The translations under genes and the position numbers were made by a program. DNA of 64,000 bases from Clostridia bacterium (GTDB lineage Bacteria; Bacillota; DSM-521; Neomoorellales; SLTJ01), in assembly GCA_024653205.1 (NCBI GenBank), contig JANLFO010000001.1, positions 124,001-188,000 on the forward strand, given 5' to 3'. The notes under the pieces are model-generated. The model was not told the DNA's origin, did no database searches, and was given only the letters and a program-made list of their open reading frames with translations. Numbering within the stretch: the first letter of the stretch is position 1; each line of letters opens with the position of its first letter. Of this stretch, positions 26,499-44,635 are shown in pieces.

Positions 26499-27518
26499 AT
26501 GGGCGGGGTACGGGTACGCACGGGAGCCAGGTTGCACCTGGGCCAGCTTGACCTGTGCGGGAACCTCGGTCGGAGGTTCGGCAGCGTAGGGGTGGCCATC
26601 GAGCGCCCCGGTTGGGAGGTGGTGGTCGAACGAGGTTCGGGGCTTCGCGTGGAAGTATCGGGGGAGGTCGAGGAGAGTGCCGCCTCCCGGGCGGCGGCCC
26701 TGGTGCAGGAGTACCTGGATCATTACTCCCTGCCGGGGGCCCGCCTGCGCATTCTCAGCTCCATACCTGCCCACAGGGGGCTGGGGTCGGGAACCCAGCT
26801 GGCCCTGGCGGTGGGCGTAGCGGTTACCCGGCTGTACGGCCTCCGCCCTTCGGTTTGGGAACTGGCGCAGGTAACCGACCGGGAGGGGAGCCGATCCGGC
26901 ATCGGGGTGGCGGCCTTTGCCCATGGCGGCCTGGTGGTTGATGGCGGTCTGCGGGTGCCTTCTCCCGGATCGCCTCCACGGCGTTCCCTTCCGCCGGTAA
27001 CTGCCCGGATTCCGTTTCCCAGGAGCTGGGGAATTGTGGTGGGCCTGCCGCCCTCCGTCCGGGAAGTGGCCGGGGAAGAGGAGGCAGCAGCCTTCGCCGG
27101 GCTCGAACCCATGGACGAGGGGACTGCCGGGTATCTCGCCCGCCTGGTCTTGATGAAGCTTCTGCCGGCGGTGGTGGAGGAGGACCTGGTGGCCTTTGGA
27201 GAAGCGGTCACCGCCATGCAGAAGACGATCGGCGGGTACTTTGCTTCCGTCCAGGGAGGGGTATTCTCCACCGGGCTGGGGGCGGAGCTGGCGGAATTCT
27301 TCTTGCGGCACGGAGCGGCAGGGGTGGGCCAGAGTTCCTGGGGGCCGACGGTCTACGGGTTTGCTCCCCGCGGGAAGGTCGAGGACCTGGTGAGAAAGGC
27401 CCGGCTGGCTTTCGGTGCTCGCGTTCAGGTTTTCGGTGCGGCCGCCATGAACCGCGGCGCCCTGTGCGGTCCGGCCGAGGAGAACACCATGGCCCTTTAC
27501 GGACGGGGGAAGAACTGA
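26499..27518 (+). CDS. mptG: Beta-ribofuranosylaminobenzene 5'-phosphate synthase (H4MPT biosynthesis)
   Basis: A 339-residue GHMP-kinase-fold protein; GGAGGGGAGA precedes the ATG. RVRTGARLHLGQLDL near the N-terminus and the phosphate loop SSIPAHRGLGSGTQLALAV (~86-105) are typical, as is REGSRSGIGVAAFAHGGLVV. The enzyme joins 4-aminobenzoate (or 4-hydroxybenzoate) to PRPP with loss of CO2, the first committed step of the methanopterin aryl-ribitol side chain. It is the marker gene for H4MPT in bacteria. It opens a tightly packed run of cofactor genes. Confidence 0.88.
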   Translation: MGGVRVRTGARLHLGQLDLCGNLGRRFGSVGVAIERPGWEVVVERGSGLRVEVSGEVEESAASRAAALVQEYLDHYSLPGARLRILSSIPAHRGLGSGTQLALAVGVAVTRLYGLRPSVWELAQVTDREGSRSGIGVAAFAHGGLVVDGGLRVPSPGSPPRRSLPPVTARIPFPRSWGIVVGLPPSVREVAGEEEAAAFAGLEPMDEGTAGYLARLVLMKLLPAVVEEDLVAFGEAVTAMQKTIGGYFASVQGGVFSTGLGAELAEFFLRHGAAGVGQSSWGPTVYGFAPRGKVEDLVRKARLAFGARVQVFGAAAMNRGALCGPAEENTMALYGRGKN

Positions 27519-27522
27519 ACCC

Positions 27523-28062
27523 ATGAGCATTGCCTGGGGGATTACCGGCGCGGGACATTTTCTCCGGGAGTGCGCGGAGCTTCTCCGTTCGCTGAAGGAA
27601 GTGGACGTATTCGTTACCGAGGCAGGGTATCAGGTGCTCAGGAGTTACGGGCTCCTCCAGACGATCCAGGAGGCGGCGCGCCGGTTCTACCGGGACGATC
27701 GGAACGGTAACCGGGCGGTAGGCCGCCTGTACACCTCGATCTACCGCCTGGTGGTGATCGCCCCGGCCACCTCCAACTCGGTGGCCAAGATGGCCTGCGG
27801 GATATCCGATACGGTGGTCACCAACCTTTTCGCCCATGCGGGCAAGTGCCGGATACCGCTGGTAGTGCTTCCCACCGATACGACAGGGGAGGTAGTCTCC
27901 GAAGCTCCGGGCCGAAGGCGGGTGGTGGCTTTTCCCCGTCCGATAGATCTGGAAAACGCGGAGCGCCTTTCGTCCTGGCCGGGGGTGACGGTGGTCCGCA
28001 GTACTGAAGAACTCGGGGACCGGCTTCGGGCTTGGGTCAGGGATAGCGGTCGGGCCGGCTAG
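27523..28062 (+). CDS. Archaeal-type flavoprotein (AfpA/DmrB-like) of the H4MPT cluster
   Basis: A 179-residue protein of the HFCD (flavoprotein) superfamily: WGITGAGHFLRECAELLR binds FMN phosphate, and VVIAPATSNSVAKMACGISD is the family's P-A-T-x-N-x-x-A segment. Homologues in methanogens and methylotrophs include dihydromethanopterin reductases that convert H2MPT to H4MPT. That role fits here, because the cluster otherwise lacks a reductase for the last pterin step. The gene starts 5 nt after mptG. Confidence 0.75.
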   Translation: MSIAWGITGAGHFLRECAELLRSLKEVDVFVTEAGYQVLRSYGLLQTIQEAARRFYRDDRNGNRAVGRLYTSIYRLVVIAPATSNSVAKMACGISDTVVTNLFAHAGKCRIPLVVLPTDTTGEVVSEAPGRRRVVAFPRPIDLENAERLSSWPGVTVVRSTEELGDRLRAWVRDSGRAG

Positions 28063-28072
28063 GGGGTGCAGG

Positions 28073-29443
28073 ATGTACGTCTTCGTTACCGGAAAGCTGG
28101 CCGCCAGGGCGTTGGAGCGGGAAGTGGCCGGGATTCTTCCGCCCGGCGGCTATGAGATCAAGGTGCTGGACCGCCGGGTGGCGGCGCTGATGAGTACCGA
28201 ATACATCGCCCGCTGCTTGGCCCGGAGTGTGTGGCCCGCCCGGCCCGAAGTTGTGGTCATACCGGGAAGGTGTGTGGGGCCCCTCGAGCCCATACAGGGG
28301 GCAACCGGCAGCCGGGTCCTCCGCGGCCCGGACGACCTGAAGGACCTTGCCGTCTTCTGGAGGCAAGAAATGGGCCTGGAGGGGAGAGATCCTCCCGGGG
28401 AGGATGCCCGGCCGCCCCGGAGACCCCAGATCCTGGCGGAAATCGTGGATGCCGCCGGGCTGGGCAGGGAGGAGATCCTCTGCCGGGCCCGTTATTACCG
28501 CGAAAGCGGCGCGGACATTATCGACCTCGGATGCTTTGCGGATAGGCCATTTCCCGGTCTGGGGAAGGTGATCCGGGCGCTCAAGGACGAAGGTTTCCGC
28601 GTGAGTGTGGACGGCTGCCGGTCTGAGGACCTCCTGGAAGCAAGTGAGGCGGGGGCGGACCTGCTCCTGAGCCTAAGCCTCCGCCACCTGCCCCTGATTC
28701 CCGAACTCTCCTGCCCGGCGGTGGTGATCCCCGAGGAGGAAGACGACCTGGCGTCCCTGTACCGGGTGATCGAGGCTATGGAGAGGTGGGGCAGGACCTA
28801 CGTAATCGACCCCATACTCCAGCCGCCCGGGCTGGGGTTGGCCCGGTCCCTGGAGCGTTACCTGCGCCTGCGGCACGAGTTTCCGGACAAACCGTTCCTC
28901 ATGGGGTTGGGAAACGTCACCGAACTGGTGGATGCAGACAGCATCGGGATCAACGCTTTGCTGGTGGGGATAGCCTCAGAACTGGAAATAGACTACGTCC
29001 TGACCACCGAGGTCAGCGCCCGGGCCGTGGGTGCGGTGCGGGAAGTAGCCCTTGCCCGCCGCCTCATGCACCGGGCACGGACTCTGGGCAGATTGCCCAA
29101 GCACGTGGACTACGGCCTTCTGGTGCTTAAGGAACCGCGGCGGGAGGTGTTCGGTGAGGAAGAGCTGACGGAGATGCAGGCCCTGGTAAGAGACCGCCAC
29201 TATCGGATTTTTGTAGGGGCGGAAAGCATATACGTCTTCAACCGCTCCGTCTTCGTCCGCGGCCGCCGCGCCGAGGAGTTGTTCGAGGCGCTTGACGTGT
29301 CGGACCCCGGGCACGCGTTCTATCTCGGCCGGGAGCTGGAGAGGGCCGAGACCGCCCTTCGGCTGGGCAAGAAGTACGTTCAGGATTGCCCGCTGCGGTG
29401 GGGATACCTGGATGAGCGGGACGGCAGGGGGAGGAGTTCGTGA
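28073..29443 (+). CDS. Dihydropteroate-synthase-related protein of H4MPT clusters
   Basis: A 456-residue protein with an N-terminal domain (~1-100, VFVTGKLAARALEREVAGIL) and a TIM barrel related to dihydropteroate synthase (YRESGADIIDLGC at ~145; VSVDGCRSEDLLEASEAGAD; PFLMGLGNVTELVDADSIG). This is the archaeal DHPS-like family (TIGR00284 as I recall) found with H4MPT genes in methanogens and methylotrophs. It probably helps couple the pterin and arylamine halves of the cofactor, but the exact reaction is not settled. The last 4 nt overlap the next gene. Confidence 0.75.
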   Translation: MYVFVTGKLAARALEREVAGILPPGGYEIKVLDRRVAALMSTEYIARCLARSVWPARPEVVVIPGRCVGPLEPIQGATGSRVLRGPDDLKDLAVFWRQEMGLEGRDPPGEDARPPRRPQILAEIVDAAGLGREEILCRARYYRESGADIIDLGCFADRPFPGLGKVIRALKDEGFRVSVDGCRSEDLLEASEAGADLLLSLSLRHLPLIPELSCPAVVIPEEEDDLASLYRVIEAMERWGRTYVIDPILQPPGLGLARSLERYLRLRHEFPDKPFLMGLGNVTELVDADSIGINALLVGIASELEIDYVLTTEVSARAVGAVREVALARRLMHRARTLGRLPKHVDYGLLVLKEPRREVFGEEELTEMQALVRDRHYRIFVGAESIYVFNRSVFVRGRRAEELFEALDVSDPGHAFYLGRELERAETALRLGKKYVQDCPLRWGYLDERDGRGRSS

Positions 29444-30057
29444 TCCGGGAGACCATAGTGTCCAGCGCGGACGCGGCGGGAAACCCCAACTTTGCCCCGA
29501 TGGGGGTGGTCGTGGAGGAGGCAGACATCGGGCGCGGGGCGGAAATAGGGCTCCGGGTGTACCGGGGGTCGCGAACCGGGGCCAACCTTCTGGAAGTGCG
29601 ACAGGGGGTAGTCAATCTCGTCGACGACGTGCTGCTCTACGTAACCACGGCCCTCTTCGACGCCCTACCGGAATGGGAACCGTCGTTCGCGGTGCGTCCG
29701 CCGGGGATGAGAGGCGCGCCGGGGCGGTGGGAATTCGTTGTAGTGGCGGCGGAGGAGGAGGTGCGGCGGGGAGCAAGGGTTGACCGGGTTACCGGCCGGG
29801 TGGTCCACACTGTGGGCGGCCACGGCGGGTTCAAGGGCTTTTGCCGGGCCCAGTGGGCGGTGCTGGAGGCCACGATAGCCGCTACCCGGGTGGGTTATGT
29901 GGGACCGGAGGTTCTGGCCTGCTGGGACTACTGGCAGAGGCTGGTGGAAAGGACCGGCGGTCCCCGGGAGAAGACGGCCTTCCGCCTGGTACGTGACTAT
30001 CTTGAGGCGCGGGGCCTCAGACCTCCGGTGCCGCCGGCGGGACGGGCGGGTTCGTGA
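29440..30057 (+). CDS. DUF447-family flavin-binding-barrel protein
   Basis: A 205-residue protein starting GTG, overlapping the previous stop. IRETIVSSADAAGNPNFAPM and EIGLRVYRGSRTGANLL match DUF447, a split-barrel FMN-binding-like family of methanogens and H4MPT-using bacteria. It is conserved in these clusters, and mutants in methylotrophs suggest a role in H4MPT synthesis, but no reaction is known to me. The C-terminal ~80 residues are helical. Confidence 0.75.
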   Translation: MIRETIVSSADAAGNPNFAPMGVVVEEADIGRGAEIGLRVYRGSRTGANLLEVRQGVVNLVDDVLLYVTTALFDALPEWEPSFAVRPPGMRGAPGRWEFVVVAAEEEVRRGARVDRVTGRVVHTVGGHGGFKGFCRAQWAVLEATIAATRVGYVGPEVLACWDYWQRLVERTGGPREKTAFRLVRDYLEARGLRPPVPPAGRAGS

Positions 30058-30091: not shown

Positions 30092-30946
30092 GTGAGACCG
30101 GTCCTGCTGCACCTTGACGTTGACCCCAAGCCTAGCGCGTTCGACCTCATCACCGCCTGTGACGCGGGGGCAGAGGTGGTCCTCCCGTACGGCGGCGTGA
30201 CGCCCGGGGAAGTCGGCGCCCTGGTGTACGGGGCACTGTTCACCCGCAAGGTGTCCCACCTGCGGCATACGGCCATATTCGTTGGCGGTTCTAAAGTGGA
30301 CGAGGCGGAGGAGGTCATGGGGCAGGTTCTCAAGACCTTCTTCGGACCTTTCCGGGTTTCGGTAATGTTCGACGCCAACGGCTGCAACACCACGGCTGCG
30401 GCGGCGGTCAGAAAGATGGCTTCGGCTCTGAAGCTGGAGGGCAGAAGGGTGCTGGTGTTGGCCGGAACCGGGCCGGTGGGGCTCAGGGCGGCGGCGTTGC
30501 TGGCTCGCGAAGGGGCCAGGGTCAGGCTCTCCTCCCGAAGCCCGGATAGAGCCCGGTCCGCGGCCGAAAAGCTTCGGGAGCAGCGAGGCCTGGAGGTGGA
30601 GCCCATCTGTGTCACCGGAGGGGAGGACCTGGAGGCAGCCCTGAACGGAGCAGAAGCAGTACTGGCCTGCGGCGCTGCCGGCGTCAGGCTGGTGCCCGGA
30701 GAGACCTGGGTTTCCCGGCCTGAACTCAAGGTGCTGGCAGATGTGAATGCGGTAGAGCCTTTAGGGATCGAAGGTATCAAGGCCACGGACGACGGTGAGG
30801 AACGGGAAGGCAAGATCGTGTTCGGCGCTCTGGCCATCGGCGGGCTGAAGATGAGGATTCACCATACCGCTTTGGGCAGGCTGTTCGAGGCCAACGACCA
30901 GGTTTTCGACCTGGAGGAGATCTACGAGCTCAGCGGGCACCTATGA
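30092..30946 (+). CDS. mtdB: NAD(P)-dependent methylene-H4MPT dehydrogenase
   Basis: A 284-residue protein starting GTG with GGAGGTGAGGAG upstream. HLDVDPKPSAFDLITACDAG, FTRKVSHLRHTAIFVGGS and FFGPFRVSVMFDANGCNTTA are the substrate-side signature of MtdA/MtdB. The Rossmann half follows with VLVLAGTGPVGLRAAALLAR. It oxidises methylene-H4MPT to methenyl-H4MPT with NAD(P)+, or the reverse. This bacterial type is unrelated to the F420-dependent Mtd of methanogens, so electrons go to a nicotinamide. Confidence 0.9.
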   Translation: MRPVLLHLDVDPKPSAFDLITACDAGAEVVLPYGGVTPGEVGALVYGALFTRKVSHLRHTAIFVGGSKVDEAEEVMGQVLKTFFGPFRVSVMFDANGCNTTAAAAVRKMASALKLEGRRVLVLAGTGPVGLRAAALLAREGARVRLSSRSPDRARSAAEKLREQRGLEVEPICVTGGEDLEAALNGAEAVLACGAAGVRLVPGETWVSRPELKVLADVNAVEPLGIEGIKATDDGEEREGKIVFGALAIGGLKMRIHHTALGRLFEANDQVFDLEEIYELSGHL

Positions 30947-32205
30947 AGAGCCAAGGCACGCTCCTTCTGGTGGGTACCAGTACCCGGGCGCTGGCCGAGT
31001 CGGCGGTCAGGTCGGGTTTTAGCGTAATGGGCTTCGACTTCTTCGCCGATATGGATCAGCAGGCTTTCTGCCCGGTGATTACCCCGGAGCGGCGAGGACG
31101 GAAGTTGACGGTGCCCGCCCTGCTCGAGCTGGCTCAGAACGAGATCCGGTCTGGCGCCGGCAAGGGCGGGGGTATAGGCGGCCTGGTCTTGGCTTCAGGG
31201 CCGGAAAACCACCCGGAGGCGCTGCGGTGGTTCTGGGAGAGAGGGCTGCTGCTGGGTAATTCCCCCGATACCCTGCAGCAGGTTAGGAATCCGTTTCGGC
31301 TGGCCGAGGCCGTCAGGGATACGGGCGTCCGCTTCCCGGAGACCTACCCCTGGGAGCAAGGGCCCCGGCTGCCGGGCGGAGCCAGGAGGTGGCTGGTGAA
31401 GCCGCTTCGGGGCGGCGGCGGTCGAGGGATCCGGCCGCTGCCGCCTGCGGGTCGGTCACGGTCCGGTGCGGTAATCGCCGGCGAGGGGACTTGCGTCATA
31501 CAGGAATTCGTTCCCGGCCTGGCGTGTTCCGCCACCTTCGCGGCCGATGGGAAACGGGCGGTAGTGATCGGAGCCAGTCTCCAGCTCCTGGCCGGCCGGC
31601 CGGAAAGGCCGTTTGGCTACGGCGGCAACATCGTCCCCCTGATCCCTCCCGAAGCCCTAAGACCTCCCTTCTGGAGGGAGAGGCTGGTGGAGGCAACGCG
31701 GGCGCTGACGGCCCGGTTCGGCCTCAGAGGGCTGAATACGGTGGATTTCATCCTCAATGCGGAAGGCATTTGGATTCTTGAAGTAAACCCGAGGTGGTCC
31801 GGCTCGGTGGAGCTGTTCGAGCAATTGAGGGGAAAGCCGCTCTTCCCGCTGCACCTTTCCGCCTGCAGCGGCGAGGGTCTTGGCGACCGGGACGAAAGGG
31901 GCGGCGGGATGGGGTTGGCTTGGGGCCCTGACCTGGCCGGGTGCCCCGGGCCGGCCTGCCGGGGAAAGGCCATACTTTATGCGCCCTACGACTTTAAGGT
32001 GAGCCCGGAATGGCCCTGGGAGCAGCTGTACCGGTGGGGCATGCGGGATATCCCCCAGCCGGGGACCCCGGTGAAGGCGGGACGCCCGGTGTGCACGGTG
32101 CTGGCGGCCGGAGATTCTTGGGCTCACTGCCGGCGGCAGCTGGCCGCCAGGCTGGAGTGGGCGCTGCGGACGCTGGAAGGCAGGAGAATTCAGGCCGTGC
32201 GGTGA
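30943..32205 (+). CDS. ATP-grasp protein of the H4MPT cluster
   Basis: A 420-residue ATP-grasp enzyme overlapping mtdB by 4 nt. WLVKPLRGGGGRGIRPL and FVPGLACSATF are the ATP-binding loops; EGIWILEVNPRWSGSVELFE is the metal-binding end with the E-x-N pair. The C-terminal RGKAILYAPYDFKV segment is typical of the ATP-grasp protein found in methylotroph H4MPT clusters, required for H4MPT synthesis but of unknown reaction. It should form an amide or acyl-phosphate type bond in cofactor assembly. Confidence 0.75.
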   Translation: MKSQGTLLLVGTSTRALAESAVRSGFSVMGFDFFADMDQQAFCPVITPERRGRKLTVPALLELAQNEIRSGAGKGGGIGGLVLASGPENHPEALRWFWERGLLLGNSPDTLQQVRNPFRLAEAVRDTGVRFPETYPWEQGPRLPGGARRWLVKPLRGGGGRGIRPLPPAGRSRSGAVIAGEGTCVIQEFVPGLACSATFAADGKRAVVIGASLQLLAGRPERPFGYGGNIVPLIPPEALRPPFWRERLVEATRALTARFGLRGLNTVDFILNAEGIWILEVNPRWSGSVELFEQLRGKPLFPLHLSACSGEGLGDRDERGGGMGLAWGPDLAGCPGPACRGKAILYAPYDFKVSPEWPWEQLYRWGMRDIPQPGTPVKAGRPVCTVLAAGDSWAHCRRQLAARLEWALRTLEGRRIQAVR

Positions 32206-32214: not shown

Positions 32215-33156
32215 ATGCTGAGACGGGATATCGCGCTGGCGGCCCAGGCCGCCTGCTGTCTGGAGGTGGCCGCGCCCAAGGTAGGCAACGTGAACCGTCA
32301 TCACGACTTTCCCGATTGCACCCTGGAGGACTTCCTTCTGAGCGCGGCGGCCATAGCCTGGGTGCTGGCAAAAATCGAGAGCTGCTCGGTGGGCCGGGCG
32401 GTCCTGGCGTGCGTGGAGGCCACGCGGGCCTGGGTGCCGGTCAACACCAATCTGGGAATCGTGCTCCTGTTCGCCCCTCTGGCGCGGGCCTGGGCAGAGT
32501 GGGCGCCGGGCGAAAGATGTGCCGACCCTTGCCGGATGGGCCTGGAAGTCCCGGAGTCCCTGCGCCGGACCCTGGCCCGGATCCTGACGGATTTGGGACG
32601 GGAAGACGCCGGCCACGTCTACCGGGCCATCCGGCTGGCCTCACCCGGGGGCCTGGGAAAGGCGGACACCCACGATGTTTCCCAGACCGAGCGGCCGGAG
32701 ATTACCCTGCTCGAGGCCATGAAACTGGCGGCCGAGCGCGACCTGGTGGCGGGAGAGTACGCGAACGGCTTCGCCCTGACTCTGGATGAAGCGCTGCCTG
32801 CCCTGGACCGGGCCCTGAGACGGGGACTGCCGTTGCCGGAGGCGGTGGCAGACGCCCACGTCTATCTCTTGGCCCGCGCCGGCGATACCCTGATCGCCCG
32901 GAAGAAAGGACGGGAGGCCTCTGGCGAAGCGTCCCTCCGGGCCCGGGCAGTCGGCGCCGCCGGGGGCTGGGGGACGCCGGCCGGCCGGGAGCAGGCGGCC
33001 GAGCTGGATCGGTGGTTGAGGGGCGGCGGAGGCCTTGGCCTCCTCAATCCGGGGTCCACGGCGGATATCGTCACTGCCGCCCTCTTTCTGGCTTTTCTAC
33101 TTCAGGGGCCCGGCTGGTGGAAGGAAGTACGGCCGGGAAGACGGGGGGTTGCCTAG
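32215..33156 (+). CDS. Triphosphoribosyl-dephospho-CoA synthase-like protein (CitG family)
   Basis: A 313-residue protein with VAAPKVGNVNRHHDFPDCTL at ~18-38 and NTNLGIVLLFAPLARAW at ~78-94, the CitG/MdcB core. There are no citrate lyase or malonate decarboxylase genes nearby. Members of this family sit in H4MPT clusters of methylotrophs and methanogens and are thought to act in cofactor synthesis, perhaps in the ribitol-ribosyl linkage, since CitG builds an alpha-1,2 ribosyl link. Confidence 0.75.
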   Translation: MLRRDIALAAQAACCLEVAAPKVGNVNRHHDFPDCTLEDFLLSAAAIAWVLAKIESCSVGRAVLACVEATRAWVPVNTNLGIVLLFAPLARAWAEWAPGERCADPCRMGLEVPESLRRTLARILTDLGREDAGHVYRAIRLASPGGLGKADTHDVSQTERPEITLLEAMKLAAERDLVAGEYANGFALTLDEALPALDRALRRGLPLPEAVADAHVYLLARAGDTLIARKKGREASGEASLRARAVGAAGGWGTPAGREQAAELDRWLRGGGGLGLLNPGSTADIVTAALFLAFLLQGPGWWKEVRPGRRGVA

Positions 33157-33171
33157 GAGGTGAGAGGAAGG

Positions 33172-33918
33172 TTGCCTGAGACCTCCCGGTCCGAAAAGGC
33201 GTGGCCGTTGCTCCTGGTTAGCGTGGTTTCTGCCCGGGAGGCGCTGGAGGCCCTCCACGGCGGGGCCGACGTGATCGACGTGAAGAATCCGGCCGAGGGC
33301 CCTCTGGGCGCGCCGCAGCCCCGAACGGTGGGCGAGATAATGCAGGCGGTAGCCCGACGAAAACCGGTGAGCCTCGCCCTGGGCGAATATCCCGGCCGGC
33401 CCACCTCGGCCGCCTGGGCGGCCTTGGGTGCCGCCGGCTTCGCTCCGGCTTACTTGAAGATCGGCTTTCCCGGCTGGGTGGAAAAGGAGGAAATCGACCG
33501 CACCCTGAAGCTGGTGGTGCAGGCGGTGGCTGAACTCGGGGGCGAGACACTTCCCCGGGTAGTGGCCGTGGGGTACGCCGACACCACGGGCCGTAGCTGG
33601 CGCCCGGCCGACCTGCCGGGGCTGGCAAAGGAAGCCGGAGCCGCGGGTTGCCTCCTGGACACCTGGGATAAGACGGGCCCTCCTCTGCCTAGAGTGACGG
33701 CCACCGCCGAGCTGGAGGCCTTTGTGGGGACCTGCCGGGCGAACGGCCTCACCAGCGGGCTGGCGGGCAGGCTGGGCGAAGAAGAGGTGGTCGAACTGCT
33801 CGCCCTGTGCCCCACGGTCATCGGGATTCGGTCCGCCGCCTGCGTGGGCGACCGGGTAAACGGGTGCGTCACGGCGGAACGGGTCGGCAGGCTCAAGCGC
33901 CTCCTGCAGCCGAGTTGA
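33172..33918 (+). CDS. mfnB: (5-formylfuran-3-yl)methyl phosphate synthase (methanofuran biosynthesis)
   Basis: TTG at 33172 is preferred because GGAGGTGA lies eight bases before it, giving 248 residues. LLVSVVSAREALEALHGGAD and VIDVKNPAEGPLGAPQP form the MfnB signature with the Schiff-base lysine in V-K-N-P; SLALGEYPG and PAYLKIGFPG follow. The enzyme condenses two glyceraldehyde-3-phosphates into the furan of methanofuran. Its 3' end overlaps by 26 nt the convergent HisA-like gene. Confidence 0.9.
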   Translation: MPETSRSEKAWPLLLVSVVSAREALEALHGGADVIDVKNPAEGPLGAPQPRTVGEIMQAVARRKPVSLALGEYPGRPTSAAWAALGAAGFAPAYLKIGFPGWVEKEEIDRTLKLVVQAVAELGGETLPRVVAVGYADTTGRSWRPADLPGLAKEAGAAGCLLDTWDKTGPPLPRVTATAELEAFVGTCRANGLTSGLAGRLGEEEVVELLALCPTVIGIRSAACVGDRVNGCVTAERVGRLKRLLQPS

Positions 33919-34792: not shown

Positions 34793-34815
34793 CGCACCGG
34801 CTGCCAACCCAGGGG

Positions 34816-36766: not shown

Positions 36767-37794
36767 TCTTCGCCTACGAGTGGTTTTGTGCCCGTGGGGA
36801 AGTCGGAGCCGGGAACGGGGCCCTGGGCCGAGAGGGGTATGCAATGCTGGCGAGCCTAATCGGCGAGTTCCTAGAGATCCCGGAGGTGGAAGTGTTGACC
36901 GTTCTCCGGGAGGATCTGGTGCCACTTTTCCCCGCCGACCACCCTCGTCTGCAGATTCGGTGTTCCGGTTCCCCGCGGGCCTTTGCGGATTGTCTGTCCG
37001 GCTGCGAGGCGGTGGTGCTGATTGCCCCGGAAACCGGAAGGAGGCTCGAGGAACTGACCTCCCTGGCGGAACGGGAGAGGAAACCGGTGCTCGGGAGCAC
37101 GTCTCTGGGCGTTCGAAAGGCGGCGGACAAGGCAGCTGCCGCCGGCCTCTTGAGCCGACGGGGAATACCCGTGCCCGGAGGCCGTTCTTTTCCCTTGCGG
37201 GCGGTGCGGGAAGTGGCCGGTTCCTTGTGCTATCCGGTGGTGGTCAAGCCGCTGGACGGGGCCGGGACCACGGCCACGTTCCTGGTCCGGGACGGTGCCC
37301 GGCTGCGTGAGGCGGTGGAACAAATTGAAGCCGCTTCCGCCGTCTCCGCCTTCCTGGTCCAGGACTACGTGCCGGGAGAGGCGGTGAGCGTGAGCCTGCT
37401 GGTGTTGCCCGGCACGGGTCGTTGCCTGGCATTGAGCCTGAACAGGCAATTGGTGTACCTGGACGAGCGGGGAGTTTTCCGGTACCGGGGGGTTAGCGTG
37501 CCCTATGCCCATCCCCAGGCCCAGAAGGCACTCTCTCTGGCCGCCCGCGTGCCGGCGGCCCTTCCCGGCCTGGCCGGGTACGTGGGGGTGGACATGGTTC
37601 TCGGCCCGGCCGGCCCGGTGGTGCTGGAGGTCAATCCCCGCATAACCGACTCCTGGGTGGCTTTGGCCAGGGTGAGCAAGACCAACCTGGCGGCGGCGTT
37701 GCTGGACGCCTGTCTGCGCCTGCGGCTGCCCGAAGACTGGGCCGTAGAGGGGCAGGCCGAATTCCGCCTGGCCGAAAATCCCAACGGGAGGTGA
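36760..37794 (+). CDS. mfnD: ATP-grasp ligase, MfnD-like (tyramine-glutamate ligase type)
   Basis: A 344-residue ATP-grasp enzyme. VVFAYEWFCARGE at the N-terminus with LGREGYAMLASLIGEF is the family start; CYPVVVKPLDGAGTTATFLV is the ATP loop and GPVVLEVNPRITDSW the metal site. In methanogens this family attaches glutamate to tyramine for methanofuran. The assignment to that reaction is inferred from N-terminal pattern and from the position between mfnE and fwdD; other ATP-grasp proteins in the cluster could take this role. Confidence 0.65.
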   Translation: MVVFAYEWFCARGEVGAGNGALGREGYAMLASLIGEFLEIPEVEVLTVLREDLVPLFPADHPRLQIRCSGSPRAFADCLSGCEAVVLIAPETGRRLEELTSLAERERKPVLGSTSLGVRKAADKAAAAGLLSRRGIPVPGGRSFPLRAVREVAGSLCYPVVVKPLDGAGTTATFLVRDGARLREAVEQIEAASAVSAFLVQDYVPGEAVSVSLLVLPGTGRCLALSLNRQLVYLDERGVFRYRGVSVPYAHPQAQKALSLAARVPAALPGLAGYVGVDMVLGPAGPVVLEVNPRITDSWVALARVSKTNLAAALLDACLRLRLPEDWAVEGQAEFRLAENPNGR

Positions 37795-37800
37795 TCGCTT

Positions 37801-38145
37801 CTGACTACGGTTTTCGGAACCCTGATCACCGTACGGAGTCTGAAGCAGGGCGTATCCGTAGCCCGGGGCAAGCAAGCGCCCGAGTACCAGGAAACGGTAG
37901 CGGTATTGGAAATGGCGCGGGAGGACATGGGCCGACTGGGCATCGCGCCGGGCGGGAGGGTCCGGGTGCGGAGCCTTCACGGAGAGATCGTTGTCGCCTG
38001 CAGGGAAGCAGATCTCCCCGGCGGCCTGTTCTGCCTGGCCATGGGCCCGGTGGCCAACCGGCTGGTGGATCCGGATACCGGGGGTTCGGGAATGCCTGCT
38101 TTCAAGAGTACGGCGGTGAGTGTGGAGCCGTGCACGGGAGAGTGA
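37801..38145 (+). CDS. fwdD: Formylmethanofuran dehydrogenase subunit D (molybdopterin-binding)
   Basis: GGAGGTGA lies six bases before a CTG at 37801, giving 115 residues: VFGTLITVRSLKQGVSVARG, KQAPEYQETVAVLEM, then LGIAPGGRVRVRSLHGEIVV. The first ATG (37906) would remove the conserved A-R-G-K segment, so a CTG start is likely. This is the beta-barrel that covers the tungsto- or molybdopterin guanine dinucleotide in archaeal Fwd. The Fhc complex of methylotrophic proteobacteria lacks it. The gene sits 5 bp before fwdB. Confidence 0.85.
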   Translation: MTTVFGTLITVRSLKQGVSVARGKQAPEYQETVAVLEMAREDMGRLGIAPGGRVRVRSLHGEIVVACREADLPGGLFCLAMGPVANRLVDPDTGGSGMPAFKSTAVSVEPCTGE

Positions 38146-38150
38146 GGGGC

Positions 38151-39440
38151 GTGGTCGTCGGCGACGTGGTCTGTACCTTTTGCGGAAGCCTTTGCGACGA
38201 TCTCGAAGTGGAGCTGGAGGGCGGGAGCATACGGGGGGTGAGACGGGCCTGCGCCGTTGGCCGGGCCAAGTTTCTGGCCGCCCGGGACACGGCCTCCCCG
38301 TCGATAAACGGGCAGCCGGCTTCCCCGGAGGCGGCCCTGGAGGAGGCGGCCCGGCTGCTCTTGCGGGCCGGCTATCCGCTGATCTACGGCCTGAGCACGA
38401 TCCCGGCCGAGGCGCAGAAGGAGGCCATAGCCCTGGCCGAGCTGCTGGGGGCCAATATCGACAGCACTTCCTCTCACTGTCACGGCCCCTCCACCATGGC
38501 CCGGCAACAGACCGGACTCCCCACGTGCAGCCTGGGCGAGGCGAAGAACCGGGCCGATCTGGTGGTCTTCTGGGGGAGCAATCCGGCCGAATCCAGCCCC
38601 AGGCATTTCGTCCGCTATTCCGTCGGCGCCAGGGGACTGCTGACGCCCCAAGGGAGAAAGGACCGAACCGTGGTGGTAGTGGACGTGAGGCCCACGGCTA
38701 CGGCGCGGCTGGCAGACGAGTTCCTGCAGATTGCCCCGGGGCAGGACTACGAGGCCCTGACCGTACTGCGGGCCCTGGTCAAGGGGGTGGCGGTGGAGGG
38801 GCGGCACCCGGCGGGGGTGCCCGTAGAGAGGTGGGCCCGACTGGCGGAGCTAATGAAGAAATGCCGGTACGGCGCGGTCTTCTTCGGCATGGGGTTGACC
38901 ATGAGCCGGGGAAGGGAGGCCAACCTGGAGTTGCTGTTGACGCTGGTAAAGGAACTCAACGCCTACACCAGGTTCCACGCCCTGCCGATGCGGGGACACG
39001 GCAACGTGGCCGGGAGCGAGAACGTGCTGGCCTGGCAGACCGGTTTTCCGTTCGGGGTGAATTTCAGTGCCGGATACCCGCGGTTCAATCCCGGCGAGTT
39101 TACCGCCGTGGACCTTCTGGCCCGCGGGGAGGTCGACGCCTGTCTGGTAATAGGCGCCGATCCGGCAGCCCACCTTCCCGGGACGTGCGTTCGGCACCTG
39201 GCCTCCATTCCGGTAATCGTGATCGATCCTCACCCCAACCTAACGGCTTCCCTCGCCCGGGTAACCATCCCGGTAGCCCCGGCCGGGGTAGCCGCGGCGG
39301 GCACTTTTTACCGGATGGACAACGTTCCCCTACGGGCAAAGAAGCTCGTGGATCTGGGCCTTCCCTCGGACGAAGAAGTCTTGAGACGATTAAGGGAGAG
39401 GATCGCCCGTGCTGAGGATCGCCAACGGTCTCATTATTGA
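38151..39440 (+). CDS. fwdB: Formylmethanofuran dehydrogenase subunit B (Mo/W catalytic)
   Basis: GTG at 38151 gives 429 residues, normal for FwdB. The N-terminal cysteines C8, C11, C15 and C34 (VVCTFCGSLCDD … RRACAVG) form the [4Fe-4S] site, and C110 in SSHCHGPSTMARQQTG is at the position of the Cys or Sec that ligates W or Mo in archaeal enzymes. Proteobacterial FhcB has lost these features, so this subunit should be redox-active: CO2 + MF to formyl-MF, or the reverse, with ferredoxin-like carriers. No carrier gene is adjacent. The 3' end overlaps fwdA by 32 nt. Confidence 0.9.
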   Translation: MVVGDVVCTFCGSLCDDLEVELEGGSIRGVRRACAVGRAKFLAARDTASPSINGQPASPEAALEEAARLLLRAGYPLIYGLSTIPAEAQKEAIALAELLGANIDSTSSHCHGPSTMARQQTGLPTCSLGEAKNRADLVVFWGSNPAESSPRHFVRYSVGARGLLTPQGRKDRTVVVVDVRPTATARLADEFLQIAPGQDYEALTVLRALVKGVAVEGRHPAGVPVERWARLAELMKKCRYGAVFFGMGLTMSRGREANLELLLTLVKELNAYTRFHALPMRGHGNVAGSENVLAWQTGFPFGVNFSAGYPRFNPGEFTAVDLLARGEVDACLVIGADPAAHLPGTCVRHLASIPVIVIDPHPNLTASLARVTIPVAPAGVAAAGTFYRMDNVPLRAKKLVDLGLPSDEEVLRRLRERIARAEDRQRSHY

Positions 39441-41034
39441 CCCCGCCAACGGGCCGAGTGGCCGGGTAGGAGACCTGTTTATCGAAGGGGGCAAGATTGT
39501 CCCCCCGCCTTCCCCGGACCGGCGGTGCGAGGTTCTGGACGCTACCGGTCTGATCGTAACCCCGGGAGCGGTGGAAATCCATAGCCATATCGCCGGCCCG
39601 AAGGTAACCTCGGGCCGCATCCTGCTGCCCGAGGACCACTACGCGCACCCGGTCAGGCGGAGGCGGGACTTCCGGTCCGGTACCGGCCGCACGGTTCCCA
39701 GCATCTTCGTAACCGGCTACCGCTACGCCGGCCTGGGCTACACCACCGTGTTTGAGGCCAGCGTGCCGCCTCTTAAGGCCAGGCACGTCCACGAAGAGCT
39801 GGCCGATCTCCCCCTGGTGGACAAGGGCTGCTACGTCCTCATGGGCAACAACTACTTCGTCATGAAGGCCATCAAGACCGGGGACAGGGGCCTGCTGAAA
39901 GAGTTGGTAGGCTGGTTGCTTCGGGCGGCCGGCGGATACGCCGTAAAGGTGGTCAACCCGGGAGGGGTGGAGAACTGGAAGTGGGGCCGGGGAGCGGTTA
40001 CCCTGGACACGCCGGTTCCTCCCTTCGAGATCACTCCCAGGGATATCCTGCTGGCTCTCGTGGAAGTCGCCGAAGATCTGGGCCTGCCGCACCCGGTGCA
40101 CATTCACGCCAACGACATCGGCCGGGCGGGGAATGTGACGACCACGCTGGAAACCATGCGGGCTCTGGCCGGGAGGCGGGCACACTTCGCCCACCTCCAG
40201 TTTCACTCCTATGACGTCAACAAGAAAGGACGGTTTCGTTCCGGGGCGGCCTCGGTGGCCGAGTTCCTGAACGAACACCCGGAGTTCACGGCGGACGTAG
40301 GGCAGGTAATGTTCGGGCCGGCCGCCACCATGACCGCCGATTCCCCCCTGGAGTACAGTCTCTATCGCCTGACCGGGGGCAAGTGGGGCAGCTGCGATCT
40401 GGAGCTGGAAACCGGCTCCGGCGTGGTACCCATGGTCTACCGCCGGAACGCTCTCGTCAACGCCGTGCAGTGGGCCGTGGGGCTGGAGCTTCTTCTCCTG
40501 GTCAACCCCTGGCAGATGTTCCTGACCACCGACCATCCCAACGGCGCTCCCTTCCACGTCTACCCGGAAATAATCAGGCTGCTTATGGATCCGGACTACC
40601 GGCGGTCGGAACTGGAGCGCCTGCCGGCCGGGGTGCGCCGGCTGACCCAACTGGCGTCCCTGGATCGGGCCTACAGCCTGGAGGAGGTGGTAATCACTAC
40701 CCGGGCGGGACCGGCCAGGGCTCTGGGCCTCAAGGGCAAAGGGCATCTGGGGGTGGGGGCAGATGCGGATGTGGTCCTCTACCGGAAGCAGGAGGACGTG
40801 GCGGCCATGTTCTCGCGGCCGGTCTACGTCTTCAAGAGAGGCCGGCTGGTGGTCAGGGAAGGCGAGCCGGTGGCGGACGCCGAGGGCAAGACGCTGGGGG
40901 TCGAGTTCAGAAGCGACTACCGGTTTCCTTCCGCTTTTCGCCAGGAGTTTGCGAGCTACTACAGCATTTCTCCGGCCAACTACCCGGTGGAGGACGACTA
41001 CTTTCGCCTGCGGGAGGTGGTAGTTTGTTCCTGA
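39409..41034 (+). CDS. fwdA: Formylmethanofuran dehydrogenase subunit A (amidohydrolase)
   Basis: A 541-residue protein starting GTG with GGGAGAGG seven bases before. Binuclear zinc amidohydrolase signature: EIHSHIAG (H58, H60), the carboxylated-lysine segment GGYAVKVVNPGG, VHIHANDIG, FAHLQFHSY and TTDHPNGAPFH. It interconverts formate and formyl-MF; in archaeal Fwd, formate made at the FwdB site travels through a tunnel to this site. All metal ligands appear present. It overlaps ftr by 10 nt. Confidence 0.92.
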   Translation: MLRIANGLIIDPANGPSGRVGDLFIEGGKIVPPPSPDRRCEVLDATGLIVTPGAVEIHSHIAGPKVTSGRILLPEDHYAHPVRRRRDFRSGTGRTVPSIFVTGYRYAGLGYTTVFEASVPPLKARHVHEELADLPLVDKGCYVLMGNNYFVMKAIKTGDRGLLKELVGWLLRAAGGYAVKVVNPGGVENWKWGRGAVTLDTPVPPFEITPRDILLALVEVAEDLGLPHPVHIHANDIGRAGNVTTTLETMRALAGRRAHFAHLQFHSYDVNKKGRFRSGAASVAEFLNEHPEFTADVGQVMFGPAATMTADSPLEYSLYRLTGGKWGSCDLELETGSGVVPMVYRRNALVNAVQWAVGLELLLLVNPWQMFLTTDHPNGAPFHVYPEIIRLLMDPDYRRSELERLPAGVRRLTQLASLDRAYSLEEVVITTRAGPARALGLKGKGHLGVGADADVVLYRKQEDVAAMFSRPVYVFKRGRLVVREGEPVADAEGKTLGVEFRSDYRFPSAFRQEFASYYSISPANYPVEDDYFRLREVVVCS

Positions 41035-41912
41035 ACGGGGTAGAAATCGAGGACACTTTTGCCGAGGCCTTCTCCATGTACGCGGCCCGGGTTACCATTA
41101 CCGCCGTTAGCGAACAATGGGCCCGGAAGGCCGCGGCTGCGGCCACCGGCTTTGCCACCTCGGTAATCGGCTGCGGCATCGAGGCGGGGGTGGAGGGGCC
41201 GGCTTCGGATACCCCCGACGGACGGCCCGGCGTGGACTGCCTCTTCTTCGCACCTCGCCGGGAAGACCTGGAGAAGCACCTCCTGCTGCGTATCGGCCAG
41301 GCGGTGATGACCGCTCCCACCACGGCTTGCTTTGACGGGCTGAGCAAGGAGCCGAACAGGGTAAACGTGGGCGGCAGGCTCCGCTTTTTTGGAGACGGCT
41401 TTCAGGCCAGCAAGGTGATAGGCGGACGCCGCTTCTGGCGCATCCCGGTCATGGAAGGCGAGTTTCTGGTAGACGAGGAATTCGGGGTGGTCAGAGGAGT
41501 CGGCGGCGGCAATTTCATCCTCATGGCCCGCTCGGTGGAGACGGCCCTGGAGGCGGCGGAGGCGGCGGTGGCAGCCCTAACCCCGGTGCGGGGCGTGATC
41601 GCTCCTTTTCCCGGCGGCATTGTGCGAAGCGGCAGCAAGGTGGGGTCCAGGTACAAGTTCCTCAGCGCCTCCACCAACGAGCGGCTCTGCCCCACCCTCA
41701 GGGGAAGAGTGGAACTGACGCTGGTGCCCAAGGAGGCGAACGCCGTGCTGGAGATCGTGCTCGACGGCCTGTCGCTGGAGGCGGTGCTGGAGGCCATGCG
41801 CCTCGGTATAACCGCAGCCTGTCGCGAAGGGGTGGTAAGGATAACCGCCGGCAACTACGGCGGGAAGCTGGGCAAGTATCAAATTCGCCTGCGGGACGTG
41901 ATGGAACAATGA
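41025..41912 (+). CDS. ftr: Formyl-MF:H4MPT formyltransferase
   Basis: TTG at 41025, after GGGAGGTGG, gives 295 residues. FLNGVEIEDTFAEAFSMYAA, then ARVTITAVSEQWARKAA and SVIGCGIEAGVEGP match Ftr (called FhcD in methylotrophs). It moves the formyl group between methanofuran and H4MPT. The open frame extends further upstream inside fwdA but that part is out-of-frame noise. Placed between fwdA and fwdC, it follows the bacterial habit of embedding ftr among the dehydrogenase genes. Confidence 0.92.
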   Translation: MFLNGVEIEDTFAEAFSMYAARVTITAVSEQWARKAAAAATGFATSVIGCGIEAGVEGPASDTPDGRPGVDCLFFAPRREDLEKHLLLRIGQAVMTAPTTACFDGLSKEPNRVNVGGRLRFFGDGFQASKVIGGRRFWRIPVMEGEFLVDEEFGVVRGVGGGNFILMARSVETALEAAEAAVAALTPVRGVIAPFPGGIVRSGSKVGSRYKFLSASTNERLCPTLRGRVELTLVPKEANAVLEIVLDGLSLEAVLEAMRLGITAACREGVVRITAGNYGGKLGKYQIRLRDVMEQ

Positions 41913-42766
41913 GGGCCGAGGTCCGGTGGCGGCCGCCGGAAGATTATCGCCGGCCGACGGTGCTGCGCCTGCGGGAAGCCCCCCCGGTACCGGTGGAAGC
42001 CGGGATTATCATGCCGTCCAACCTGTGCGGCAAGAGCCGGCGCGAGATAGAGGAGTTGCGGTTCCTGGTTGGAAACCGGGAGGAGCCGCTGGGAAGGTAC
42101 TTTGCGGTGGAAGCGGGAGAAGATGCGGCCTTGCGGGTTGAGGGCGATCTGAGCCGCTTCAAGCGTGTGGGCGCGGGAATGGACGGCGGCCTGCTCCACG
42201 TCGTCGGCCCGGTAGGGCCCCACGCCGGGGCCCAAATGCGTTCGGGGCTTCTGGTGGTGGAAGGGACGGCGGGAGACTGGCTGGGCGCTCATCTGGAAGG
42301 CGGCAAGATCGTGGTGCTCGGCGATGCCGGGCACCGGGCGGGAGCGGCCTATTGCGGCTATGCCACCGGAATGAAAGGCGGACTGATAATCATTTCCGGC
42401 CGGGCCGGACAGATGGTGGGGGCGCGCATGCGCCGGGGCATCATTGCCGTGGGCGGTGGAGCCCTGGATTTCGCCGGCTACGGCATGAGGGGCGGCACGC
42501 TCCTGGTCTGCGGGGAAGCCGGGGAACGGGTTGGGGCCACCATGAGGCGGGGAACCGCGATACTCTTTTCGCCCTGCGAATTGCTGCCGACGTTCCGGTA
42601 CGGCGGCCTTTTTACCCCGCTTTTCTGGCTGGTCCTGAAGAATTACCTGGATAGGGAGGGCTTCCGGCTGCCGGAGGAGGCGGTCCGGAGCGGGTTTCAC
42701 CGGTTCACCGGCGATCACAACGAGCTGGGGAAAGGAGAAGTCTTGATATGGGCGGGCACGAACTGA
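41909..42766 (+). CDS. fwdC: Formylmethanofuran dehydrogenase subunit C
   Basis: A 285-residue protein starting at ATG overlapping the ftr stop. It carries a run of G-x-x-G-x-x-x-G repeats (VGAGMDGGLLHVVGPVGPHA, MKGGLIIISGRAGQMVG, MRGGTLLVCGEAGERVG), the right-handed beta-helix also found in glutamate synthase. FwdC organises the complex and holds FwdA and FwdB together. It overlaps mch by 19 nt. Confidence 0.92.
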   Translation: MRAEVRWRPPEDYRRPTVLRLREAPPVPVEAGIIMPSNLCGKSRREIEELRFLVGNREEPLGRYFAVEAGEDAALRVEGDLSRFKRVGAGMDGGLLHVVGPVGPHAGAQMRSGLLVVEGTAGDWLGAHLEGGKIVVLGDAGHRAGAAYCGYATGMKGGLIIISGRAGQMVGARMRRGIIAVGGGALDFAGYGMRGGTLLVCGEAGERVGATMRRGTAILFSPCELLPTFRYGGLFTPLFWLVLKNYLDREGFRLPEEAVRSGFHRFTGDHNELGKGEVLIWAGTN

Positions 42767-43719
42767 GCCTGAACGGGCGGGCGGCAGCCTTGGTGCAGGA
42801 GATGCTCGCCCGCCGCCGGGAACTCCGCATCTCGGCTGCCGAAGTGGCCGGAGCCACAGTTGTCGACTGCGGCGTGCAGGCTCCGGGCGGTTGGGAAGCC
42901 GGGCTCTATTTTGCCCGGATCTGTCTGGCCGATCTGGCCTGTGTCGCCCTTCTGCCGGGGGAATTCGGGGGAAAGGTTTGGCCGGCGGTAATGGTGGCCA
43001 CGGATCACCCGGCACTGGCCTGCCTGGGAAGCCAGTATGCCGGCTGGTCTCTCCGCCGCGACGGGTACGGGGCTATGGGTTCCGGTCCGGCCCGCCTTCT
43101 GGCCCGGGCAGAGGAGTTGGTCGGGCGCCTGGGTTACGGGGAGCAGGCCGACTGCGCCGTCCTGGCCCTGGAGGCGGGTCAACTGCCTTCCCCGGCGGTA
43201 ATCGAGTACGTCGCGGAGAAGTGCGGGGTTCCCCCTTCTGGTTTATACGTGCTGGTGGCGCCCACCGCCTCCCCGGTGGGATCGGTGCAGGTGGCGGCCC
43301 GGATGGTGGAAACCGGGCTCCACAAGATGCTGGCCGTGGATTACGACCCCAGGCGGGTGGTACGCGCCTGGGGTACCTGCGTGGTGCCGCCCGTCGCGGC
43401 CGACGATACCGAGGCGCTCGGACGCACGAACGATGCGGTGCTTTACGGTTCCACAGTATGCTACACGGTAGACGACGGGGACGAGGCTCTGGAGAGGCTG
43501 GCCAGGGAGCTTCCTTCACGGGCCTCGCGGGACTGGGGAAAGCCTTTCGGCGAGTTGTGGCGGCAGTACGGGGACTTCTACGCCATCGATCCGCACCTGT
43601 TCAGCCCCGCCGAGGTATGCCTTTCCAGCCCGGTGAGCGGACGAACCTTTCGCGCCGGAAGCAGGCGGGCAGACCTCCTGGCCCGGTCCTTTGCCCTGAC
43701 CGAGATCCAGGGGGAGTGA
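42748..43719 (+). CDS. mch: Methenyl-H4MPT cyclohydrolase
   Basis: A 323-residue protein; ATG inside the end of fwdC with GGGGAAAGGAGAAG upstream. VVDCGVQAPGGWEAGLYFAR, SGPARLL, PSGLYVLVAPTASPVGSVQV and KMLAVDYDPRRVV are Mch signatures. It converts methenyl-H4MPT to N5-formyl-H4MPT, linking MtdB to Ftr. With MtdB, Ftr and Fwd it completes the path between methylene-H4MPT and CO2. Confidence 0.92.
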   Translation: MGGHELSLNGRAAALVQEMLARRRELRISAAEVAGATVVDCGVQAPGGWEAGLYFARICLADLACVALLPGEFGGKVWPAVMVATDHPALACLGSQYAGWSLRRDGYGAMGSGPARLLARAEELVGRLGYGEQADCAVLALEAGQLPSPAVIEYVAEKCGVPPSGLYVLVAPTASPVGSVQVAARMVETGLHKMLAVDYDPRRVVRAWGTCVVPPVAADDTEALGRTNDAVLYGSTVCYTVDDGDEALERLARELPSRASRDWGKPFGELWRQYGDFYAIDPHLFSPAEVCLSSPVSGRTFRAGSRRADLLARSFALTEIQGE

Positions 43720-43729
43720 TCGCGGCGGG

Positions 43730-44635
43730 ATGGAACGTCCACGGGTGGGAATTCTCGCCGGCAGGAACAGCCGCGAGGCCGGGCTGTTGGAGGAAGCCCT
43801 GCGGCGTGAGGAAGCAACGGTCTGCCGTCTCTCCCCCAGGGGGTTCGTCAGCCGGGTGGCGGCGGGGACAGGGGGCTTCGTTTGCCGGGTAGAAGACCTC
43901 TCGGGTGTCGCCCTCCACGAACTCGACGCTCTGGTAGTGCGATCGCTGCCCGGGGGCTCCCTGGAGCAGGTAGTCTACCGGCTGGACGTCCTGCACCAGC
44001 TTGAGGGCGACGGAGTACTGGTGGTGAACCGGCCCGCAGTCCTGGAGAAGACGGTGGACAAGTTTTTCACCACCTTTCACCTGGCCGGGCACGGCCTGCC
44101 GGTACCCGCCACCGTGGTGGTGGAGCGTTTCGACCAGGCCATGTCCGCCTTCGAGGCCATGGGCCGGGCAGTCCTGAAACCCCTTTTCGGTTCGCGGGGG
44201 GTGGGGATGGTGCTGCTGGAAGACCCAGACATTGCTTACCGGGTCTTCCGCTCTCTGGAACTGGGTCGCTACGTGTACTACCTCCAGCAGTTTCTCGGCC
44301 ACCACAAAGAGGATCTGCGGGTCTTCGTGCTGGGAGGAGCGGTCCTGGCCGCCATGCGCAGGTGTTCGGCGTCCTGGAAGAGCAACCTGGCCTGCGGCGG
44401 GTGGCCGGAGCCGGCGGATCTCGACCCGCGGCTGGCGGCGTTGGCCGTGGATACGGCCCGGGTGCTGGGCGCGGACTATCTGGGAGTTGACCTGGCCGTA
44501 GTAGAGGGTAGCCCGTACGTGATCGAAGCCAACGGGATTCCGGGTTGGGTAGGACTCCAATCCGTGGCGGAGCCGGATATTGCCCGGGCTATTGCCGGGC
44601 ATGTTCTGGCAAGAATCGGGGGGCGGAAAAGGTGA
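43730..44635 (+). CDS. RimK-type ATP-grasp glutamate ligase of the H4MPT cluster
   Basis: A 301-residue ATP-grasp protein 10 bp after mch. RVGILAGRNSREAGLLEEAL at the start, MGRAVLKPLFGSRGVGMVLL as ATP loop, LGADYLGVDLAV and PYVIEANGIPGW at the metal end. Homologues near H4MPT genes are alpha-L-glutamate ligases such as MptN, which adds glutamate to H4MPT. It might instead lengthen the glutamate tail of methanofuran; the sequence does not separate these. Confidence 0.78.
   Translation: MERPRVGILAGRNSREAGLLEEALRREEATVCRLSPRGFVSRVAAGTGGFVCRVEDLSGVALHELDALVVRSLPGGSLEQVVYRLDVLHQLEGDGVLVVNRPAVLEKTVDKFFTTFHLAGHGLPVPATVVVERFDQAMSAFEAMGRAVLKPLFGSRGVGMVLLEDPDIAYRVFRSLELGRYVYYLQQFLGHHKEDLRVFVLGGAVLAAMRRCSASWKSNLACGGWPEPADLDPRLAALAVDTARVLGADYLGVDLAVVEGSPYVIEANGIPGWVGLQSVAEPDIARAIAGHVLARIGGRKR

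Follow-up and report, generated by a model that had tools for sequence, protein, structure and literature searches.

The chemistry of tetrahydromethanopterin (H4MPT) and methanofuran is generally associated with methanogens and aerobic methylotrophs. Known systems close to the genes analysed here include the archaeal tungsten formylmethanofuran dehydrogenase FwdABCD (PDB 5t5i, 8rja) and Fhc, the formyltransferase/hydrolase complex found in aerobic methylotrophs (PDB 6s6y). The acquisition of FwdB by bacteria from archaea has been published (PMC10100899), and Fwd, Mch and Ftr of Acetomicrobium hydrogeniformans have been described merely as archaeal-like genes (PMC6025917). Hakuba Actinobacteria carry fwdDBA-ftr-fwdC, according to the paper without methanopterin biosynthesis genes (PMC7325909). 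FwdB is described as a selenoprotein of methanogens in a 2026 review (PMC13188914), and the DUF2193 protein of Methanococcus voltae (Mvol_0354) as a possible Fe-S protein (PMC9431491). Here we analyse a 64,000-nucleotide stretch of a Clostridia bacterium genome (contig JANLFO010000001.1, positions 124,001 to 188,000; hereafter, the window), in which a gene cluster at 26.4–44.6 kb and three genes upstream of it may form a self-contained H4MPT/methanofuran module for one-carbon (C1) oxidation. According to this reading, to which we give a probability of about one half, an AqpM-type channel would admit the substrate and a DUF2193 protein would load its carbon on H4MPT.

The cluster and its predicted formylmethanofuran dehydrogenase

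The cluster is near-continuous, with genes nearly all on the plus strand and overlapping or nearly so (Table 1). Family matches confirm that it encodes the predicted enzymes for H4MPT and methanofuran synthesis and for methylene-H4MPT/CO2 interconversion (mtdB, mch, ftr, fwdDBAC). MtdB contains the Mpt_N domain and is matched over its full length by MtdA/MtdB. Both the Acetomicrobium and the Hakuba systems resemble the window. The Acetomicrobium module is common to both organisms and is seen here to include DUF2193 and MtdB, whereas the paper describes neither DUF2193 nor a pathway (PMC6025917). In the Hakuba genomes the operon order matches, with no E/F/G subunits, but the window cluster does have methanopterin biosynthesis genes (PMC7325909).

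FwdB of the window scores 433 bits against 8rja_B and 398 bits against 5t5i_B, but only 52 bits against 6s6y_B (FhcB). It keeps the metal-ligand Cys111 (numbered from 38148) within a CHGP motif, encoded by TGT, as well as the N-terminal [4Fe-4S] motif (C9, C12, C16, C35). The four N-terminal cysteines are also kept in all four FhcB compared. In FhcB of Thiodictyon, Azospirillum, Azoarcus and Aquabacterium, from methylotroph-type plasmid clusters, Ala or Gly replaces the ligand and the HGP sequence is not retained. The open reading frame ending at 38145, identified as fwdD without a hidden Markov model, is conserved in position and sequence, archaeal fwd loci included. An Fhc identity is ruled out by the metal ligand kept in FwdB and by the presence of fwdD. 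The enzyme of the window is thus predicted to be a formylmethanofuran dehydrogenase with intact catalytic residues. It shares with the archaeal tungsten enzyme the four-Cys motif, the Cys or selenocysteine (Sec) ligand in C/U-HGP, a separate FwdD and a FwdA alignable over its full length. It differs in that no FwdF/G is seen in the window and in that a single bacterial cluster combines the fwd genes with those for cofactor biosynthesis and for an NAD(P)-type MtdB. Common to the window and Fhc of aerobic methylotrophs are the gene order fwdB-A-ftr-C and a nearby Ftr, in some cases also MtdB and mfn/mpt genes; Fhc, however, has no FwdD, and FhcB has neither the metal ligand nor HGP. In Azoarcus and Aquabacterium, moreover, fae adjoins fhc, whereas a search for the formaldehyde-activating enzyme Fae (PF08714) found none in the window genome or in 18 others (19 genomes searched; controls positive).

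In five bacterial genomes, those of Moorella sulfitireducens, its congener G009, Desulfosporosinus lacus, Gracilibacter and Solidesulfovibrio, the FwdB ligand codon is an in-frame TGA (L009:11173-12459, L012:2931-4226(-), L019, L020, L025). These frames are otherwise open and 55–63% identical to window FwdB, which points to selenocysteine at this position, as in the Methanopyrus enzyme. Hairpins downstream of TGA did not exceed shuffled sequences in strength (z -1.1 and -1.8); the selenocysteine assignment thus relies on codon position, reading frame and conservation. Gene callers would split or truncate such fwdB genes. Selenocysteine in window FwdB itself is ruled out, its codon being TGT. 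In the metagenome-assembled genome (MAG) of Desulfosporosinus sp. SbF1 (L017) the same position is AGA, either a sequencing error or an inactive copy.

The earlier note on this DNA had proposed a tree of FwdA. In our quick tree, FwdA of the window shares a branch (SH-aLRT 99), separate from that of Fhc (SH-aLRT 100), with the proteins of Moorella, Desulfosporosinus, Gracilibacter, a Peptococcaceae MAG, three Synergistaceae MAGs, Solidesulfovibrio and a Planctomycetaceae MAG. Since phyla are mixed inside this branch, the topology fits transfer between anaerobes.

We infer that the host belongs to Bacillota of the same order as M. sulfitireducens. Formyltetrahydrofolate synthetase (FTHFS) and the beta subunit of carbon monoxide dehydrogenase/acetyl-CoA synthase (CODH/ACS) were both found in its genome by single-family searches, which bears out the suggestion in the earlier note of a firmicute with a folate Wood-Ljungdahl pathway. 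Because the host has these enzymes of its own, the predicted H4MPT/methanofuran route is supported as an addition to that pathway. The cluster is patchy in the class of the host, even between sister species, being carried by 3 of the 22 genomes sampled. Its gene order is kept in M. sulfitireducens (G013; L009, L010) and G009 (a single 3.3 Mb contig), as well as in D. lacus DSM 15449, Gracilibacter BRH_c7a and the Peptococcaceae MAG; it is rearranged in Synergistaceae, Acetomicrobium, DTU030 and Solidesulfovibrio.

DUF2193, the AqpM-type channel and the sigma-54 activator

Although the cluster reported earlier for 26499–44635 stands, its limits as a unit do not, since the functional unit reaches upstream into 21.7–26.4 kb, where a sigma-54 activator, DUF2193 and an AqpM-type channel are encoded. 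Moorella, Desulfosporosinus and Peptococcaceae all retain the order sigma54-DUF2193-AqpM-mptG, and sigma54-DUF2193-mtdB is found in DTU030 and others. In Bacillota this position of the activator, immediately before DUF2193, is conserved. In Synergistota the arrangement is DUF2193-mtdB, so that DUF2193 adjoins mtdB there as it does in DTU030. Gracilibacter has sigma54-DUF2193-AqpM at a site away from fwd, accompanied there by separate mptG-like (GHMP kinase) and dihydropteroate-synthase-like genes. Among methanogens, an AqpM-like gene adjoins DUF2193 in 30 of the 30 loci fetched.

DUF2193 is rare in Bacillota (10 of 399 genomes), and all ten genomes have H4MPT or methanofuran genes on the DUF2193 contig; the contigs of three (G144, G344, G365) are short and without mch. 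Eight Bacillota genomes have an Mch of at least 390 bits. Seven of these carry DUF2193, and the eighth has a lone mch with no cluster (Fisher p = 3e-12 across the 399 genomes). Among 111 genomes of Synergistota, DUF2193 is present in 12 and Mch in 15, with Mch in all 12 DUF2193 genomes (p = 1e-13); both p-values ignore shared ancestry. FwdB is found without DUF2193 in three MAGs, namely, Desulfosporosinus SbF1, a Planctomycetaceae and a Synergistaceae genome. Of 148 genomes from the Methanoculleus phylum, 37 have DUF2193. By association, the sigma-54 activator, DUF2193 and the AqpM-type channel are shown to belong to the H4MPT/methanofuran unit.

The bacterial and methanogen DUF2193 proteins are about 60% identical. 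In an alignment of 62 sequences, 130 columns are at least 97% identical across bacteria and archaea, and the near-invariant residues include H61, H68, H89, H260, D274, H277, H278, H372, C442, C472, C475 and C487. The AlphaFold model is all-helical (pLDDT 79, pTM 0.84), and a Foldseek search of it against the PDB gave no significant match (best E 0.065, TM at most about 0.2). The window protein has its family and the C-terminal Cys motif in common with Mvol_0354, for which the single open-access paper found to mention the family suggests an Fe-S role only and draws no link to AqpM or H4MPT (PMC9431491). A glycerol kinase identity, considered for this 493-residue protein from its size and MIP neighbour, is ruled out by the PF09959 match. 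The channel scores 311 bits against AqpM versus about 67 or less against AqpZ/GlpF. To our knowledge, the physiological solute of the methanogen aquaporin is not settled.

Mch (PF02289) was rejected as a lone marker of the pathway. It is misleading because many Bacillota have lone Mch-like genes, 32–38% identical, without H4MPT genes; G143 gives a 400-bit Mch match and has no cluster. Such lone genes (L013:15247-16209, L015:12349-13305, L016:10911-12703 and others) are in some cases repeated within one genome or arranged as a tandem with a shorter version. They adjoin BMP/PnrA-type nucleoside ABC transporters, amidohydrolases, FMN reductase or Fe-alcohol dehydrogenase. Probably, they encode a cyclohydrolase with another substrate, which would mislead surveys. 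Two further observations concern related clusters. In another Bacillota H4MPT cluster, DUF1464 (L152:4528-5613(-), 311 bits) adjoins a FolE2-type GTP cyclohydrolase and is possibly another orphan family tied to these cofactors. The Acetomicrobium H4MPT cluster contains an HPPK-FolE2 (GCHY-1) fusion (L035:12909-14375).

Proposed C1 oxidation and rival readings

In the proposed pathway, a small uncharged substrate, with methanol and formaldehyde as foremost candidates, would diffuse in through the AqpM-type channel, and DUF2193, helical and rich in His, Cys and carboxylates, would move formaldehyde-level carbon to H4MPT, replacing Fae. MtdB would convert methylene- to methenyl-H4MPT and Mch would yield formyl-H4MPT. 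Ftr would then pass the formyl group to methanofuran, and the fwdDBAC product would oxidize formylmethanofuran to CO2. The oxidation would furnish NAD(P)H and electrons of low potential for use by the host; an acetogen could spend them on its folate Wood-Ljungdahl pathway. Enzyme families strongly predict the steps from MtdB to Fwd; the role of DUF2193, the substrate and the direction are put forward more cautiously. The annotated window, to which this search was confined, contains neither mer nor mtr. With no Fae in the 19 genomes and no outlet at methylene-H4MPT in the window annotation, the pathway as encoded lacks an entry enzyme. DUF2193 is proposed for this step because it is the only extra conserved enzyme-like component, often adjoins mtdB, and is accompanied by a channel for small uncharged solutes and by the type of activator usual in inducible catabolism; the sigma-54 activator suggests that this catabolism is substrate-inducible. 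Since FTHFS and CODH/ACS coexist with the cluster, a second route for CO2 reduction is not needed. Tentatively, DUF2193 could be an unrecognised enzyme of a new helical fold that loads C1 units from the small uncharged substrate entering through AqpM on H4MPT. It would be shared by methanogens and anaerobic bacteria (Bacillota, Synergistota, Desulfovibrionaceae), and in these bacteria would feed an anaerobic H4MPT oxidation route that is independent of Fae and ends in a (seleno)formylmethanofuran dehydrogenase.

Several observations weigh against C1 oxidation through DUF2193 and AqpM. AqpM was not found next to DUF2193 in Synergistota, and in Acetomicrobium a major facilitator superfamily (MFS) transporter gene precedes DUF2193. 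The DUF2193-AqpM pair is also present in methanogens, and some of these are hydrogenotrophic and are not known to grow on C1 alcohols. Part of the co-occurrence of DUF2193 with H4MPT genes may stem from a single transferred cluster having been inherited as a whole. No gene for the ferredoxin subunits FwdF/FwdG is annotated in the cluster, a search that did not extend to other parts of the genome, and the enzymes of the pathway are in principle reversible.

A reductive direction, in which Fwd would reduce CO2 and methylene-H4MPT would be made as a second archaeal-type CO2-fixing branch, has in its favour the CO2-reducing archaeal type of Fwd, with its catalytic Cys/Sec, and the CODH/ACS of the host. 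It is nevertheless unlikely: methylene-H4MPT has no outlet in the window through mer, mtr or otherwise, MtdB is an NAD(P) enzyme that is oxidative in methylotrophs, and folate entry through FTHFS is present. Moreover, several carriers of the cluster have no CODH/ACS, and DUF2193 and AqpM would be left unexplained. The same evidence qualifies the earlier description of the cluster as a second archaeal-type methyl branch. The route is indeed additional to folate, but an archaeal-type methyl branch is not supported: the cluster ends with methylene-H4MPT, neither mer nor mtr being found in the window, MtdB belongs to the NAD(P) type known from Methylobacterium instead of being the F420 enzyme, and an oxidative C1 route is suggested by the adjoining DUF2193/AqpM unit.

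It is also doubtful that DUF2193 and AqpM serve CO2 or another gas, for example in CO2 supply or hydration for Fwd, or that DUF2193 is a step of H4MPT biosynthesis. The pairing of both genes in methanogens, the many invariant His, Cys and Asp residues of DUF2193 and the roughly four-fold increase of Methanocalculus aqpM at high pressure and low CO2 (PMC12727201) would agree with such a role. However, since DUF2193 is missing from most of the genomes sampled in the methanogen phylum and has no match in the M. jannaschii control, it is not generally needed for CO2 supply or cofactor synthesis, and such a role would account neither for the sigma-54 control nor for Synergistota lacking AqpM. Mere detoxification of formaldehyde made inside the cell is more improbable still. 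Without Fae, the H4MPT enzymes could use spontaneously formed methylene-H4MPT, but a dedicated channel and a sigma-54 activator exceed the needs of detoxification, and the distribution is patchy even between sister species. Contamination or mis-assembly, which the earlier note had raised as a possible refutation, would be conceivable for a genome in 51 contigs, yet its chance is minimal. The genome (2.46 Mb) is 98.8% complete with 0.4% contamination, and the window is interior to a 237 kb contig. The flanking helicase gene resembles those of all members of the host's class. Mis-assembly is rejected because syntenic clusters exist in isolate genomes, with identical gene order in M. sulfitireducens SLA38 and D. 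lacus DSM 15449.

Gene inventory, flanking genes and significance

The gene list of the earlier note was borne out by family matches, all genes being present near the positions it gave. Three entries needed amendment: the HisA-like gene runs opposite to its neighbours, on the minus strand, the oxoprolinase-like gene is MfnF-like, and fwdD is a short reading frame that probably starts at the CTG at 37801.

Table 1. Genes of the proposed module, with window coordinates and supporting matches
Gene or product	Coordinates	Strand	Evidence
Sigma-54 dependent activator (DhaR/PrdR-like)	21728..23839	+	NCBIfam PRK11388 458 bits
DUF2193 protein (PF09959), candidate C1-loading enzyme for H4MPT	24007..25488	+	826 bits to PF09959, residues 4-493
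AqpM-type aquaporin	25510..26400, true start probably near 25651	+	phmmer 311 bits to AqpM 3ne2
mptG-like beta-RFAP synthase	26499..27518	+	subfamily TIGR00144 179 bits
AfpA/DmrB-like flavoprotein (dihydromethanopterin reductase candidate)	27523..28062	+	TIGR02699 113 bits, TIGR02700 101 bits
Dihydropteroate-synthase-like protein	28073..29443	+	TIGR00284 201 bits; DUF6513, PterinBD
DUF447 protein	29440..30057	+	PF04289, PF20766
mtdB, NAD(P)-type methylene-H4MPT dehydrogenase	30092..30946	+	Mpt_N domain PF09176 101 bits; phmmer 247 bits to MtdA/MtdB structures 1lu9, 6tge
ATP-grasp ligase	30943..32205	+	PF02655; position between mtdB and fwdD conserved
CitG-like protein	32215..33156	+	PF01874 231 bits
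mfnB, (5-formylfuran-3-yl)methyl phosphate synthase	33160..33918	+	PF04476 201 bits
HisA/HisF-like protein	33893..34705	-	TIGR00734 119 bits
mfnF-like (hydantoinase/oxoprolinase family)	34744..35994	+	TIGR03123 248 bits, MfnF 156 bits
mfnE-like amino acid kinase	36071..36766	+	NF040622 63 bits, PF00696
mfnD-like ATP-grasp tyramine-glutamate ligase	36760..37794	+	NF040722 81 bits, PF02655 109 bits
fwdD, molybdopterin-binding C-terminal subunit	37801..38145, start uncertain	+	50% identity, equal position in Moorella loci
fwdB, catalytic subunit	38142..39440	+	TIGR03129 535 bits
fwdA, amidohydrolase subunit	39409..41034	+	TIGR03121 684 bits; tree
ftr, formylmethanofuran:H4MPT formyltransferase	41022..41912	+	TIGR03119 407 bits
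fwdC	41909..42766	+	TIGR03122 224 bits
mch, methenyl-H4MPT cyclohydrolase	42748..43719	+	TIGR03120 368 bits, PF02289 399 bits
mptN/RimK-like glutamate ligase	43730..44635	+	NF040720 215 bits, below equivalog cut-off

Just before the sigma-54 activator, a gene for an MFS transporter related to aromatic-acid/H+ symporters (19914-21268) has an apparent frameshift at about 20.9 kb, either real or an assembly error. Further upstream, the window encodes an S-layer-homology protein and an exopolysaccharide set (8505-16273; Cps4B-like capsule synthesis, O-ligase-like, Wzz-type chain-length proteins). On the other side, a TIGR00375-family domain is fused to a UvrD-like helicase (56811-60197), an arrangement found in most genomes of the class.

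The earlier note held that a second, archaeal-type methyl branch in a firmicute would be unusual, but Fwd and H4MPT genes in anaerobic bacteria have precedent (PMC10100899, PMC6025917, PMC7325909). In the open-access literature, nothing specific on H4MPT in Moorella or Synergistota was found beyond the cited papers, and no report of a selenocysteine-containing FwdB in bacteria. Nor did we find a description there of the full cofactor and pathway cluster in the Moorella order, of the bacterial selenocysteine variant or, above all, of the DUF2193-AqpM partnership. The locus represents an entire module, conserved in gene order and apparently open to transfer, in bacteria related to anaerobic acetogens and sulfate reducers, of which some can be cultured; its Fwd is predicted to be catalytic and, at times, selenium-containing. 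That DUF2193 and AqpM are tied to this module across two domains of life provides a concrete, testable function for two orphans, a highly conserved archaeal protein and the methanogen aquaporin.

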